From positions 1,984,001 through 2,048,000 of the forward strand of contig NZ_CP107904.1 in assembly GCF_036013975.1 (NCBI RefSeq): DNA of 64,000 nt, read 5' to 3'. Of the stretch, positions 18,458-21,801 are shown piece by piece (positions within the stretch are counted from its first letter, which is position 1; each line of letters begins with the position of its first letter). The notes under the pieces are model-generated. The model was not told the origin of the DNA. It saw only the letters and a list, made by a program, of their open reading frames with translations, and searched no databases. Made by a program: the position numbers and the translations under genes. This DNA is from Kitasatospora sp. NBC_00458 (lineage in GTDB: Bacteria > Actinomycetota > Actinomycetes > Streptomycetales > Streptomycetaceae).

Positions 18458-18832
18458 CCCCGTGCTCCCTTCGCCTGCGTGCAGACCGTCCCGCATTCTG
18501 TCCGGCGCGGGGCGGGGCGGCCCCGGGGCGCACGCGCGACGCGGGCGGGCTCACCCGTCCGGCGCAGCCGCCGGGCGGGCGCCGGCGGCTGCGGGAGGGC
18601 TGCGGAAAGACTGCGGGAGGGCTGCGGGGCGACCGCGGGACGGCCTCCCGCAACGGCCTCCCGAAGCCCCCGGTTCATCGCGGGGAGGGGATGACCTACT
18701 GGCCGGTACGGAGTAGTAACGTCGTCGGGGCGGTGCACCGGTGCACACCTACCGTGCTCCCGCCCCGCTGGACAACAGCTTGCGGTACCACCTGTCGCTG
18801 GGCGATCCCCAGCACCACCGAAGGGCAACTGA
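18458..18832. other. 375-bp divergent intergenic region
   Basis: Contains imperfect repeats of CTGCGGGAGGGCTGCGG and CGGCCTCCCGAA (18590-18670), then the promoter area of the hydroxyacyl-CoA dehydrogenase with the palindromic TACTGGCCGGTA at 18697-18708. No gene is supported. Confidence 0.5.
18697..18708. promoter_or_regulatory. TetR-type operator candidate upstream of 3-hydroxyacyl-CoA dehydrogenase
   Basis: TACTGGCCGGTA is near-palindromic and lies 125 nt before the start codon. TetR repressors of acyl-CoA metabolism in actinobacteria often use such spaced TAC...GTA sites; assignment here is by analogy only. Confidence 0.4.
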
Positions 18833-19702
18833 GTGAGTGACATCGCGCGCGTCGGAGTGATCGGCTGCGGCCTGATGGGGTCGGGCATCGCGGAGGTGTT
18901 CGCCCGGGCGGGACTGGAGGTCCTGGTCGCGGAGGCCACCGGGGAGGCGCTGGAGTTCGGCCGCACCCGTCTCACCAACTCGCTGGACACCGCCGTCAAG
19001 CGGGGCAAGCTCACGCCCGAGGAGCGGGACGAGGCGCTGGGCCGGCTCGCCTTCACCGTGGACCTGGCGGACTTCGCCGACCGCGACCTGGTGGTGGAGG
19101 CGGTGGCCGAGCGCGCGGACGTCAAGGTCCGGATCTTCCAGACCCTCGACCGGGTGATCGAGCGCCGGGACGCGATCCTCGCCTCCAACACCTCGTCGAT
19201 CCCGATCGTGAAGCTGGCCGCCGCCACCTCCCGCCCGGAGCAGGTGGTCGGCCTGCACTTCTTCAACCCGGCGCCGGTGCAGAAGCTGGTCGAGGTGATC
19301 CCCACCCTGACCACCTCGGCGGCCACCACCGAGCGGGCCGAGGCGTTCGCCACCGAAGTGCTCGGCAAGGAGCCGATCCGGGCCCGTGACCGGGCCGGGT
19401 TCGTGGTCAACGCCCTGCTGGTGCCGTACCTGCTCTCGGCCGTCCGGATGTTCGAGTCGGGTGTGGCCACCGCCTCCGACATCGACAAGGGCATGGAGGC
19501 GGGCTGCGCCCACCCGATGGGCCCGCTGCGGCTGTGCGACCTGATCGGCCTGGACACCATCGTCTCGATCGCCGAGTCGATGTACGACGAGTACAAGGAG
19601 CCGCTGTACGCCGCTCCCCCGCTGCTGTCCCGGATGGTGGACGCCGGTCTGCTCGGCCGCAAGTCGGGGCGCGGCTTCTACGACTACACCGCCACCGCCT
19701 GA
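18833..19702 (+). CDS. 3-hydroxyacyl-CoA (3-hydroxybutyryl-CoA) dehydrogenase
   Basis: 289 residues from the GTG at 18833. NAD-binding GVIGCGLMGSGIAEV (8-22); catalytic His in VVGLHFFNPAPV with the downstream Glu region; substrate-binding NTSSIPI; C-terminal dimerisation domain ending GRGFYDYTATA. Length matches the monofunctional FadB2/Hbd type. It reduces acetoacetyl-CoA or oxidises 3-hydroxyacyl-CoA. A strong hairpin follows at 19743. Confidence 0.95.
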   Translation: MSDIARVGVIGCGLMGSGIAEVFARAGLEVLVAEATGEALEFGRTRLTNSLDTAVKRGKLTPEERDEALGRLAFTVDLADFADRDLVVEAVAERADVKVRIFQTLDRVIERRDAILASNTSSIPIVKLAAATSRPEQVVGLHFFNPAPVQKLVEVIPTLTTSAATTERAEAFATEVLGKEPIRARDRAGFVVNALLVPYLLSAVRMFESGVATASDIDKGMEAGCAHPMGPLRLCDLIGLDTIVSIAESMYDEYKEPLYAAPPLLSRMVDAGLLGRKSGRGFYDYTATA

Positions 19703-19742
19703 CCCGCGGCGGGGCGGGCGCGTGAGGGGGCGGGCACGTGAC

Positions 19743-19776
19743 GGGGCCCGGGAGCGGTATCCAGCTCCCGGGCCCC
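19743..19776. terminator. Bidirectional terminator hairpin
   Basis: 13-bp perfect stem (19743-19755 with 19764-19776), 8-nt loop. It closes the hydroxyacyl-CoA dehydrogenase gene on the plus strand and the permuted tRNA-like transcript on the minus strand. Confidence 0.8.
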
Positions 19777-19826
19777 TGAGGTGCCACCCAATTGCTCTGC
19801 ACCGGCACGTTTAAGGGTGTGGGTCA

Positions 19827-19906
19827 GTTTTACAACGTTGCTCTGCCATTGAAGCTACCGCGCCACGGAGAGGCGCAGACGGGAGTCGAACCCGCAACCC
19901 ACGCTG
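19827..19906 (-). tRNA. Candidate circularly permuted tRNA, unit 2
   Basis: Read 5' to 3' on the minus strand, the 3' half comes first: C38 (19906), AGCGT anticodon-stem strand (19905-19901), 5-nt variable loop, T arm GCGGG-TTCGACT-CCCGT (19895-19879), acceptor strand CTGCGCC (19878-19872), discriminator T (19871). After a 6-nt linker comes the 5' half: acceptor GGCGCGG (19864-19858), TA, D arm GCTT with a GG-containing 8-nt loop (19855-19840), A26, anticodon-stem strand ACGTT (19838-19834) and GTAAAAC. Acceptor pairing is 7/7 (one G-U); the anticodon stem is 5 bp (one T-G), 6 with the next G-C. No CCA is encoded. If the 5' part supplies the loop, the anticodon would be AAA; if the 3' part does, GCT. 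Normal-order folding gives no acceptor stem. Confidence 0.75.
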
Positions 19907-19968
19907 TAGCACACACCCGGTCGATCCGGCGCTCGGCGGCGAATGCTGAGACTTGAGCGAGAGTCTGA

Positions 19969-20051
19969 GTTTCACAGGGGCTGCCTCTGCCGGTTGGGCC
20001 ACCCCGGCGTGTGGTGCCGGGGGGAGGACTCGAACCTCCACCTTTCCCCTG
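19969..20051 (-). tRNA. Candidate circularly permuted tRNA, unit 1
   Basis: The 3' half comes first: CAGGGG (20051-20046), AAAGGT, T arm GGAGG-TTCGAGT-CCTCC (20039-20023), acceptor strand CCCCGGC (20022-20016), discriminator A and an encoded CCA (20014-20012). After just 3 nt (CAC) the 5' half begins: acceptor GCCGGGG (20008-20002), TG, D arm GCC with an 11-nt loop containing GG and GGC (19999-19983), then CCCCTG (19980-19975) and TGAAAC. The acceptor stem is a perfect 7 bp; the anticodon stem is 5 bp, extendable to 6. The 5' part gives loop GTGAAAC (anticodon GAA, phenylalanine type) if it alone supplies the loop. The encoded CCA directly followed by a 5' half is hard to explain except by permutation. 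Confidence 0.78.
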
Positions 20052-20116
20052 ATGTCAGCTTCAACATCAGTGTCAGCTTGCGCTCTTCGCGCCACCCCCG
20101 CTCTGACACGGGGGCG
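20049..20116 (-). ncRNA. Pseudoknotted leader of the permuted tRNA array
   Basis: Between the stop of the upstream gene and unit 1. Hairpin CCCCCG (20114-20109) with CGGGGG (20100-20095); its loop TGTCAG (20108-20103) can pair with CTGACA at 20076-20071, forming an H-type pseudoknot over the small GCGC-GAAGA-GCGC hairpin (20092-20080). AAGCTGACA occurs twice (20079-20071 and 20061-20053), and a competing 7-bp hairpin CTGATGT/ACATCAG (20070-20049) would hide the start of the unit 1 3' half. These look like mutually exclusive folds. Confidence 0.5.
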
Positions 20117-20125
20117 ATCATGGGG

Positions 20126-20857
20126 CTACCCGAACAGGTAGCCGAACACGGCGTCGCCGACCCGGTGGTCGGTGACCTCGGCGCCGTTGGCCTCCTCGCG
20201 GGCGAACTGGACGGCCTGCTGGAGCTTCTCGACCCGCTCCAGGAGTTCGTTCACCCGCCGGGCCGGGAGGGCGCCGGAGAACTTCACGGTCGTCCAGTAG
20301 CCGATGGCGACGTCCTCGTAGTACACCTCGACCTGCGCCGGGTGCTTCTCGGTCGCCTCGGCCTTCACGTGGTTGCGCGGGACCTTCTTGGTGCGGTTGG
20401 TGCGCACCGCCTCGGTCTTCCAGGAGTCCGTGGAGGCGTCGTGGTTCCAGGACTCGGCGGCGTCCAGCACCGGCAGCTTGCGGACGAACGTCCGCAGGTC
20501 GGTGAGCTGCTTCTCCAGGAAGAGCAGGTAGGTGACCGGGACGTCGGCGACGAGGGTGCGTCCGTCGACCACGACGTCGGCGCGGGCGGCGGTGTTGGCC
20601 CAGTCCTTGGTGGCGGTGACGTCGAACAGCCGGGTCAGGGTCGCGGCGGTCGTCCGCAGGACGTCCTCGGCCTTCACCTGGACGCGGGTGGACTCGGGGG
20701 GCAGCTGCTCGCCCTCCTCGTCCTTGGGCTGGTAGGTCCGGGAGATGCCGGCCAGCAGCGCGGGCTTCTGCAGGTCCTGGTGGGACTGCGTCAGCTCCTG
20801 GAACGACTTGGACTTGACGCCCTTTTCGACGGCGATGATCTGGTTCAGCTTGGACAC
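20126..20857 (-). CDS. Conserved actinobacterial/phage-type protein of unknown function (possibly DUF7873)
   Basis: 243 residues, GTG start at 20857. The N-terminus MSKLNQIIAVEKGVKSKSF is highly conserved among actinobacterial and, as far as I remember, actinophage proteins of unknown function; I believe Pfam lists it as DUF7873 but cannot check. It is soluble, mixed alpha/beta, with charged helices (LLFLEKQLTDLRTFVRKL and ELLERVEKLQQAVQFAREE). No catalytic motif is recognised. A TAGCGT -10-like hexamer 7 nt before the GTG suggests a leaderless transcript. The permuted tRNA array starts about 10 nt after its stop on the same strand with no terminator between, so they are probably one transcript; a role in handling that RNA is a hypothesis only. 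Confidence 0.8.
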   Translation of the reverse strand: MSKLNQIIAVEKGVKSKSFQELTQSHQDLQKPALLAGISRTYQPKDEEGEQLPPESTRVQVKAEDVLRTTAATLTRLFDVTATKDWANTAARADVVVDGRTLVADVPVTYLLFLEKQLTDLRTFVRKLPVLDAAESWNHDASTDSWKTEAVRTNRTKKVPRNHVKAEATEKHPAQVEVYYEDVAIGYWTTVKFSGALPARRVNELLERVEKLQQAVQFAREEANGAEVTDHRVGDAVFGYLFG

Positions 20858-20961
20858 GCCCCGGACGCTACCAGGACGTCCGTTCGACCGTCATCCGGAT
20901 TTCCCGGCCGGCCGCGGGGCCCCGGGGGGAGCGGGCGCCCGCGGCGCGGCGGGTGGGGGCC

Positions 20962-21801
20962 TCAGCTGTTGATGGCGTAGCTGTCGCCGTAGACCTTCCA
21001 CTTCAGCGGCGGGTTGAGGTCGAAGTTCCTGGCGTTGAGGAAGACCAGCTGCGCGGTGTCGACGCGGCTGGTGTCGGAGTGTGCGTCCTCCTGCTTCATG
21101 ACGACCTTCCGGGCGTCCAGGAACGCCTTGAGGTAGGTGGCCTCGTCGCCGCCCTGGGCGGGGGTCTTGGCCTTCTTCATGGCGGCCTTGCGGATGCCGC
21201 CGAAGCTGTCGGAGCTGGTGCCGGGTCCGTGCATGACGATGGCGTCGTAGTAGACGAACTGGCCGAGCGCGCGCAGGCCGTCGGACTTGGCCTGGCTGAC
21301 GGAGGGGTTGAAGTAGACGCGGTCGCGCTCGTCGTTCTGGGCCTGCTGGAAGACGGTGTCCTTGGCGGCGGTGGCCCAGTCGCGCTCGAAGGCGGAGCCG
21401 AGGCCGGCGTGCGACTCGGTGCCGTTGACCTTGCGCAGCGCGGGCAGGTACTTGGCGAGGACGTTGCCGGGCTTGACGTCGGTGTAGTGCTCGACGAGTT
21501 CGAGCATGTCGCCGGTGCCGGAACAGAAGCCGATGATGCCGGCCGTGTAGCCGCGGCCGTCCTTGATGTCCTCGATGTACTTGTACTGGGCCTTCCAGTC
21601 CAGCGAGGAGTTCTCGGCACTGGACACCAGCTGCATCGCGATGTCCTTCTTGTGCGGGTCGTCCAGGCCGACGGCGACGGCGGCCGCGGCCGAGGGCGCG
21701 GGCTGTGCGGCGTGGCCGACCCCGGCGGCCGCCACCGTGGCCGGGGCGGCGACCAGGAGGGCGGCGAGGGCGATCCCGGCGGTGCGGTGCTTGAGGCGCA
21801 T
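20962..21801 (-). CDS. csn: Secreted chitosanase, GH46
   Basis: 279 residues. A Sec signal peptide (about 1-45, ending near the Ala-rich AAQPAPSAAAA) precedes a catalytic domain nearly identical in layout to the Streptomyces sp. N174 chitosanase. The catalytic Glu is in SSAENSSLDWK (Glu63) and the general base Asp in DGRGYTAGI (Asp81). It hydrolyses beta-1,4-glucosamine polymers outside the cell. A perfect palindrome at 21852-21872 lies 50 bp upstream and fits a CsnR-type operator. Confidence 0.96.
   Translation of the reverse strand: MRLKHRTAGIALAALLVAAPATVAAAGVGHAAQPAPSAAAAVAVGLDDPHKKDIAMQLVSSAENSSLDWKAQYKYIEDIKDGRGYTAGIIGFCSGTGDMLELVEHYTDVKPGNVLAKYLPALRKVNGTESHAGLGSAFERDWATAAKDTVFQQAQNDERDRVYFNPSVSQAKSDGLRALGQFVYYDAIVMHGPGTSSDSFGGIRKAAMKKAKTPAQGGDEATYLKAFLDARKVVMKQEDAHSDTSRVDTAQLVFLNARNFDLNPPLKWKVYGDSYAINS

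Follow-up and report, generated by a model that had tools for sequence, protein, structure and literature searches.

A two-arm RNA element with circularly permuted tRNA-like modules adjoins DUF7873 genes in Streptomycetaceae and phages

What kind of RNA does a bacterium encode when the halves of a tRNA stand in reverse order? A locus of Kitasatospora sp. NBC_00458 carries two such units in tandem, each with the 3′ half of a tRNA-like fold placed before the 5′ half. The preliminary description had read them as two permuted tRNA genes, had considered a chance origin very unlikely and could cite no well-characterised bacterial counterpart. We analysed the locus within a window of 64,000 nucleotides (contig NZ_CP107904.1, positions 1,984,001–2,048,000), together with DUF7873 loci from Streptomycetaceae, named phages and IMG/VR. 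Positions are those of the window unless stated otherwise.

Anatomy and covariation of the RNA element

The letters and coordinates of both units match the sequence as described. In module 1, CCCCGGC and GCCGGGG pair at 7/7 positions around A-CCA and a 3-nt linker, and AGGGG pairs with CCCCT at 5/5; in module 2, CTGCGCC pairs with GGCGCGG at 7/7 positions and AGCGT with ACGTT at 5/5, each with one G-U. The feature is larger than first noted. On the minus strand, the DUF7873 gene (20126–20857) is followed by a structured element of ~330 nt (about 19781–20114), which starts ~11 nt past the stop codon and holds both modules within 300 nt 3′ of it. Here the reading as two tRNA genes gives way: since the anticodon-like stems extend outward into long closing helices and a conserved core, both modules are arms of a single non-coding RNA element. 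The consensus fold of 46 non-redundant Streptomycetaceae sequences comprises two hairpins, two long helices that each end in a tRNA-like module, and a GC-rich hairpin. The parts of the locus are as follows.

20126..20857, minus: DUF7873 (PF25283) gene, 243 aa, predicted partner protein (Pfam E 2.2e-120)
20095..20114, minus: 5′ hairpin P1 of the RNA element (consensus fold, 46 Streptomycetaceae sequences)
20080..20092, minus: hairpin P2 (consensus fold)
20055..20078, minus: domain 1 closing helix, 5′ strand (consensus-fold pairing with 19945–19969)
20050–19976, minus: module 1 as a whole (sequence)
20046..20050, minus: module 1 anticodon-stem-like 3′ strand AGGGG (5/5 with 19976–19980)
20023..20039, minus: module 1 T arm (sequence)
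20016..20022, minus: module 1 acceptor 3′ strand CCCCGGC (7/7 with 20002–20008)
20012..20015, minus: module 1 discriminator A and encoded CCA, 3-nt linker next (sequence)
20002..20008, minus: module 1 acceptor 5′ strand GCCGGGG (7/7 with 20016–20022)
19983..19999, minus: module 1 D arm, tRNA-Leu type (nearest tRNA D arm is Leu)
19976..19980, minus: module 1 anticodon-stem-like 5′ strand CCCCT (5/5 with 20046–20050)
19945..19969, minus: conserved core and domain 1 closing helix 3′ strand, CTCAGACTCTCGCTCAAGTCTCAGC (among the most conserved segments in 81 loci)
19912..19931, minus: domain 2 closing helix 5′ strand and ATCGA side of the conserved internal loop (covarying helix)
19905–19834, minus: module 2 as a whole (sequence)
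19901..19905, minus: module 2 anticodon-stem-like 3′ strand AGCGT (5/5 with 19834–19838, one G-U)
19879..19895, minus: module 2 T arm (covariation)
19872..19878, minus: module 2 acceptor 3′ strand CTGCGCC (7/7 with 19858–19864, one G-U; covariation)
19858..19864, minus: module 2 acceptor 5′ strand GGCGCGG (covariation)
19840..19855, minus: module 2 D arm (covariation)
19834..19838, minus: module 2 anticodon-stem-like 5′ strand ACGTT (5/5 with 19901–19905)
19800..19821, minus: domain 2 closing helix 3′ strand, with CTTAAACG (several invariant or nearly invariant positions in 33 sequences)
19743..19776, minus: GC-rich hairpin at the predicted 3′ end, terminator-like, without a T run (sequence)

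Alignment of the window with other loci (best 80 of 532) extends over ~330 nt 3′ of the stop codon, and among these 81 loci the linker joining the two modules ranks with the best-conserved segments. At the 3′ end, a partial match to Rfam sR035 is confined to the hairpin at 19743–19776, and a simple terminator scan of this region called no terminator. A 94-aa open reading frame (19811–20095, minus strand) overlaps the RNA element.

We scanned the 600 nt downstream of DUF7873 for permuted modules in three sets of loci: 81 from Streptomycetaceae (the window plus the best 80 of 532 DUF7873 loci, whose titles name Streptomyces, Kitasatospora or Actinacidiphila, with one ‘Actinobacteria bacterium’ as the exception), 12 annotated loci (11 phages and Nonomuraea) and 88 from IMG/VR (the best 80 of 365 plus 8 from two further queries, including copies or near-copies of named phages, such as L189 and L190 of Klebsiella jumbo phages and L164 of a Gordonia phage). 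At least one module was detected in 81/81 Streptomycetaceae loci and two in 67/81. The corresponding counts were 12/12 and 7/12 for the annotated loci, including a probably false call in L102 (6/7 acceptor, 64-nt linker, a HEARO RNA at the same place), and 78/88 and 44/88 for IMG/VR, where 10/88 had none. L105, L106 and L107 each have one detected module; in L100 a second is visible by eye beside the single one detected, and L191 has T- and D-arm-like sequence yet no call.

Upstream controls contained at least one module in 0/80, 1/11 and 8/87 loci of the three sets, and these matches in phages may be ordinary neighbouring tRNAs; the reverse complement gave 4/81, 0/12 and 1/88. Two modules never occurred in either control. 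None of 905 dinucleotide shuffles contained a module, and this, with 81/81 loci against 0/80 upstream in Streptomycetaceae, bears out the earlier judgement that chance is an unlikely origin.

Compensatory changes across relatives, which had been suggested as a check, were found. Without guidance, RNAalifold predicted the T arm, acceptor stem and D arm of module 2 and nothing else from 54 sequences, with compensatory changes at 15/15 of the predicted pairs. The structure as named (16 pairs) was paired in 98.6% of cells and reached a covariation score of 0.772, compared with 0.209 after shuffling and at most 0.172 after sliding; these values apply to module 2 and are biased towards pairing, as the 63 non-redundant references, 53 of which were aligned with the window, had been preselected for acceptor pairing of at least 6/7 and a linker of up to 14 nt, and at least one row (L170) resembles module 1. 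Across domain 2, 27/31 pairs show compensatory change, closing helices included, in 33 sequences (the window and 32 of 34 references) that carry a similar bias, having been preselected for 7/7 acceptors, a linker of up to 12 nt and a CTTAAACG-type motif.

Given this preselection, we place most weight for the acceptors on a calling that used the T arm and D arm alone and covered both modules. It identified 270 modules in 166/181 loci, and their acceptors paired at 7/7 positions in 255, at 6/7 in 6 and at 4/7 or less in 9, while strands swapped between loci reached 7/7 in 6.2% and 6/7 in 13.9% of cases. Similarly, the anticodon-like stem was paired at 5/5 positions in 211/270 modules versus 17.5% after swapping. 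Across the 118 two-module loci, module 1 shows 39 distinct acceptor pairs and module 2 shows 51. Of the original interpretation, a circularly permuted tRNA-like fold, twice in tandem with the 3′ half before the 5′ half, thus stands on strong covariation; the status of tRNA gene does not.

Module 1 is missing in 14/81 Streptomycetaceae loci (the window plus the best 80 of 532), indicating that two arms are not always needed. In the 13 such loci with an excisable segment, its place is taken by 43–53 nt, for the most part folding into GC-rich hairpins. This replacement suggests a module that sits on its stem as a separate unit.

Linkage of the RNA element to DUF7873 in bacteria and phages

The protein encoded beside the element matches DUF7873 with 401.3 bits over residues 1–242 (Pfam gathering score, 27 bits). 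The family is common, with 7,436 of 7,999 candidates scored passing E 0.001; it is named in no PMC paper found, and 6/6 DUF7873 proteins compared with PHROGs fell into no family at E 0.001.

Using a covariance model of domain 2, designated R1, we searched 121 genomes of the bacterial family under stricter filters, scoring 24 first-look candidates in each. DUF7873 is present in 75 of these genomes. Among the matches listed, full-length R1 matches of at least 70 bits occur in 74 genomes, all of them on the same strand as DUF7873 and 123–273 nt downstream of it, and in 0/46 genomes that lack the gene. The sole DUF7873 genome below this cut-off (G311) has a fragmentary DUF7873 match adjoining a full-length R1 match of 46.9 bits. 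When weaker matches are counted too (E up to 0.01), 118/121 genomes have one among the matches listed; those examined in the genome of the window, where the element itself matches at contig positions 2003797–2003956, are duplicated tandem tRNAs (three loci checked) and the units beside TROVE described below. Alongside its anatomy and covariation, the RNA thus has a near-exclusive linkage to one gene across genomes.

No such constancy was seen for other neighbours. The genes near the window's element (GH46, 3HCDH, SDR and pheT) each recur in 5–7 of 80 bacterial loci (3-kb flanks; best 80 of 532), and apart from frames overlapping DUF7873, no other gene cluster occurs in more than 11/99 viral loci within 2–2.5 kb on each side. 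The DUF7873–RNA pair is therefore the unit, a cassette without a fixed genomic location.

Besides Streptomycetaceae, phages that infect Actinobacteria, cyanobacteria and Klebsiella carry the pair. By tblastn, DUF7873 was found in 73 phage records, and relatives are encoded on 365 IMG/VR stretches. Among the 12 annotated loci, those from phages of Arthrobacter, Gordonia, Rhodococcus, Klebsiella and Pseudanabaena carry permuted modules 3′ of DUF7873, mostly two per locus, together with a TTATCGCTC-type core at the position of the window's conserved core; a single module was found in each of the Vibrio and Rhizobium phages. In the cyanophage Pam2 group (L101, L191–L196), the core is nearly constant between close relatives and the acceptor and T stems change wholesale, mostly still paired; Pam2 itself has the same acceptor pair in both modules. 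ARAGORN calls at least one tRNA in 56/99 viral loci and three or more in 29, and the calls overlap modules in three loci.

Individual phage loci show further variation. In Microcoleus phage My-WqHQDG (L102, 3450–3659), a HEARO RNA (129.1 bits; gathering score, 83) directly follows DUF7873 in place of the twin permuted RNA. In Klebsiella phage vB_KpM_FBKp24 (L108, 2766–2845), an annotated tRNA-Sup-TTA, called as a Stop tRNA by ARAGORN, overlaps the permuted element and is probably a misannotation. In Rhodococcus phage NiceHouse (L099, 3874–4746), a gene for a Band-7-like membrane protein follows the DUF7873–RNA pair and one tRNA.

Proposed function and relation to YrlA

We propose that the DUF7873 gene product and the two-arm RNA likely form a ribonucleoprotein that would imitate tRNA in the manner of Ro60 and Y RNA, with a different protein, a reading to which we assign a probability of roughly two in three. 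The RNA would correspond to the 3′ portion of the DUF7873 transcript, either produced in that form or released by cleavage. Following the logic of Ro60 and Y RNA, in which a protein-bound stem carries an outward tRNA mimic, and because the genetic partner here is DUF7873, this protein is the candidate RNA binder; it may contact the TTATCGCTC-type core, the internal loop ATCGA/CTTAAACG, which is conserved across loci, or both. Fold comparison lends RNA binding no support, as Foldseek returned no match for DUF7873 in the PDB at E 0.001 or better and no known fold matched its predicted model convincingly. Enzymes that recognise tRNA, such as modification enzymes, PNPase, processing nucleases and host tRNA-cutting nucleases, could dock on the two outward arms and would thereby be tethered or occupied by the particle. 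In phages, the particle may protect or retune the tRNA supply of the phage, and Streptomycetaceae would hold a resident version of the same module. A constant core, fast-changing but paired arms and the frequent neighbourhood of phage tRNA genes fit such a putative decoy or tether for tRNA-recognising proteins.

A bacterial counterpart of the fold, which the preliminary description had not been able to name, does exist and is characterised: the closest known RNA is YrlA, a bacterial Y RNA that acts together with Rsr/Ro60. Two papers describe the tRNA-like domain of YrlA as a circular permutation of tRNA (PMC11472068; PMC8394870), and one of them presents it as a substrate of DusA and TruB that binds PNPase, with the basal stem tethering Rsr (PMC8394870). 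Like YrlA (PDB 6CU1), the present element sets a circularly permuted tRNA-like domain, comprising T arm, acceptor and D arm, on a basal stem; unlike YrlA, it has two tandem modules, a different conserved core and internal loop, and a link to DUF7873 instead of rsr.

These similarities raise the alternative that the modules are an ordinary YrlA pair that became separated from rsr and to which Rsr binds in trans, with DUF7873 as an accessory. The Rfam YrlA model (RF02553) matches module 2 end to end with 40.3 bits (E 9.6e-7) and module 1 with 22.3 bits (E 0.14), both below the gathering score of 69 bits. The genome's own units beside TROVE, at 42.6 and 34.6 bits, likewise fall short, so the threshold alone is not decisive, and the score of module 2 is similar to theirs. 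On their own, weak matches to this model are worth little: at E up to 10 they occur in 13/14 control genomes, none over the cut-off. In the Rfam alignment of module 2, part of the YrlA basal-stem motif to which Rsr binds is retained, with UGCU opposite AAAACUGA, but conservation across loci falls on the loop ATCGA/CTTAAACG.

The genome of the window has two TROVE matches, at contig positions 4954810 and 7928648, away from the element's R1 match. Across the 121 genomes, TROVE matches, which span only about 50–80 of 442 model positions, occur in 70; 51 genomes have both TROVE and DUF7873, 24 DUF7873 only, 19 TROVE only and 27 neither. By these simple counts, the two co-occur more often than expected (Fisher p 0.005, uncorrected for kinship), and Rsr may accordingly still play a role. 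Against a displaced YrlA pair, 24/75 DUF7873 genomes lack a TROVE match; where both are present they share a contig in 21/51 and lie within 10 kb of each other in one (G329); and the linkage of strong R1 matches (at least 70 bits) to DUF7873 is 74/74. Moreover, R1 matches this genome's TROVE-side units at positions 63–121 only, which span the tRNA-like part and leave out the closing domain. Module 1, unlike the two TROVE-side units tested, belongs to the tRNA-Leu type. Overall, we consider a relocated YrlA pair unlikely.

Two loci deserve mention in this context. In G329 (C4:4561415–4565016), the TROVE match lies 2.5 kb from DUF7873. In the window's own genome, a minus-strand locus (L010; G000:C1:4953310–4956492) combines a TROVE match with at least two upstream permuted units and three copies of a GGTTACTTC-type motif, and is probably the canonical Y RNA locus of this genome.

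Y RNAs in phages are as such already known: one report proposes Rsr and Y RNAs in Listeria phage CKA15 and mentions Y RNAs found in mycobacteriophages (PMC12282133), and another describes a Ro60-related protein in a Vibrio jumbo phage and several phages reported with YrlA (PMC7765460). A jumbo-phage survey notes TROVE proteins (PMC7824862) and a mycobacterial survey predicts yrlA in some species (PMC9569102). A search of the PMC literature, outside which the primary Y RNA papers lie, returned no description of the present RNA. YrlA already provides a known case of permuted tRNA mimicry; as far as these searches reach, neither the two-arm RNA nor its core nor its DUF7873 partner has been described.

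If the proposed ribonucleoprotein is correct, it would extend permuted tRNA mimicry beyond Ro60 and Y RNA to an RNA that has two arms and is partnered by another, unstudied gene, and would give DUF7873 a testable function through its RNA. It would also account for a non-coding gap and a tRNA call in phage genomes (L108), and would provide a natural set of rapidly changing tRNA mimics for asking which tRNA enzymes phages imitate or evade.

tRNA character of the modules and further readings

How far does each module resemble a particular tRNA? When module 1 was compared with the genome's own tRNAs, the six best rows were all tRNA-Leu. With ties shared, its D arm is nearest to Leu in 67/67, 5.8/7 and 37.5/44 loci of the three two-module sets, and 68.7/74 distinct D arms are called Leu; in a leave-one-out control, the same call was made for 29.8/33 Leu, 0/11 Ser and 9.6/201 other tRNAs. 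Among the 118 two-module loci, the discriminator of module 1 is A in 101, and CCA is encoded in 59 for module 1 versus 20 for module 2. The discriminator of module 2 is T in 80, G in 33 and A in 5. We also considered module 2 as a mimic of one particular tRNA, and no single isotype stood out.

These results bear on the possibility that module 1 is a functional permuted tRNA-Leu, in which RNase P and RNase Z would cut the linker, the A73-CCA end would be leucylated and DUF7873 would act like SmpB. Leucyl-tRNA synthetase does not need the anticodon, which module 1 lacks, and the control-backed D-arm calls, the frequent discriminator A and the excess of encoded CCA over module 2 all point in this direction. 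Conversely, the absence of module 1 from 14/81 Streptomycetaceae loci and the fact that CCA is not universal argue against it.

A related known system is tmRNA, in particular its two-piece form, which has a permuted order with the acceptor 3′ end, a short linker and the acceptor 5′ end, and no anticodon. The present element shares the permuted acceptor order and the lack of an anticodon; unlike tmRNA, it has two tRNA-like domains and complete D arms. No tmRNA was called by ARAGORN in the window or by Rfam at E up to 1 in 18500–21500, and no tag peptide was found, which further weakens the case for a permuted tRNA-Leu; we regard it as improbable. An elaboration would be a second aminoacylated-RNA system beside tmRNA, in which module 1 would be leucylated without an anticodon after cutting of the linker, at the A73-CCA that it retains, module 2 and DUF7873 would bring the particle to the ribosome or to tRNA enzymes, and phages would spread the two components as a cassette. 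We offer this as a speculative idea with a small chance of being right.

Large structured RNAs beside protein genes have precedents of another kind. HEARO, GOLLD and ROOL are large structured RNAs of phages and mobile elements found next to either a conserved protein gene or an array of phage tRNAs, and the element resembles them in adjoining a conserved protein gene or phage tRNAs. None of the three matched the window at 18500–21500, and across the window element Rfam 15 gave YrlA, a barely above-threshold tRNA match and the terminator hairpin, and nothing else.

The element could alternatively be a cis-acting 3′ untranslated structure that solely stabilises or autoregulates the DUF7873 mRNA. 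Its start just past the stop codon would suit such a role, as would the result of a promoter scan covering a single promoter type, which found no sigma-70-like site around the element. A tRNA fold kept by compensatory changes in two arms would, however, exceed what mRNA stability should need, and we think a purely cis-acting role rather improbable.

In the permuted tRNA genes of red algae and archaea, the 3′ half precedes the 5′ half, as it does here, and joining of the halves restores the anticodon loop. True permuted tRNA genes of this type, with transcripts circularised and spliced into functional tRNAs, would explain the half order and the complete acceptor, T and D arms. Unlike in those genes, the anticodon-like stems here continue into closing helices, which covary in domain 2; a hairpin can replace module 1; and ARAGORN found no tRNA in the whole window. 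We judge this origin very unlikely.

An ordinary tRNA gene was likewise rejected. The Rfam tRNA model (RF00005) does match with 30.4 bits (threshold, 29), pairing the 3′ half of unit 1 with an upstream hairpin in the ordinary order; of the 72 tRNA matches listed for the genome it scores lowest, the one above it reaching 42.8 bits, and we read it as spurious.

Finally, an artefact of neighbouring ordinary tRNAs, in which the 3′ half of one tRNA runs into the 5′ half of its neighbour, is real elsewhere in this genome, where duplicated Ala, Arg and Gly tRNAs (L003, L005 and L006) give false YrlA and R1 matches, but can be dismissed for the window, which holds no tRNA by ARAGORN and belongs to a set of 118 loci in which ordinary-order pairing of the unit 1 5′ with the unit 2 3′ acceptor strand reaches 3–5/7 in 106, 6/7 in 7 and 7/7 in 1, compared with averages of 6.97 and 6.98 for the permuted order in the same loci, preselected for at least 6/7.
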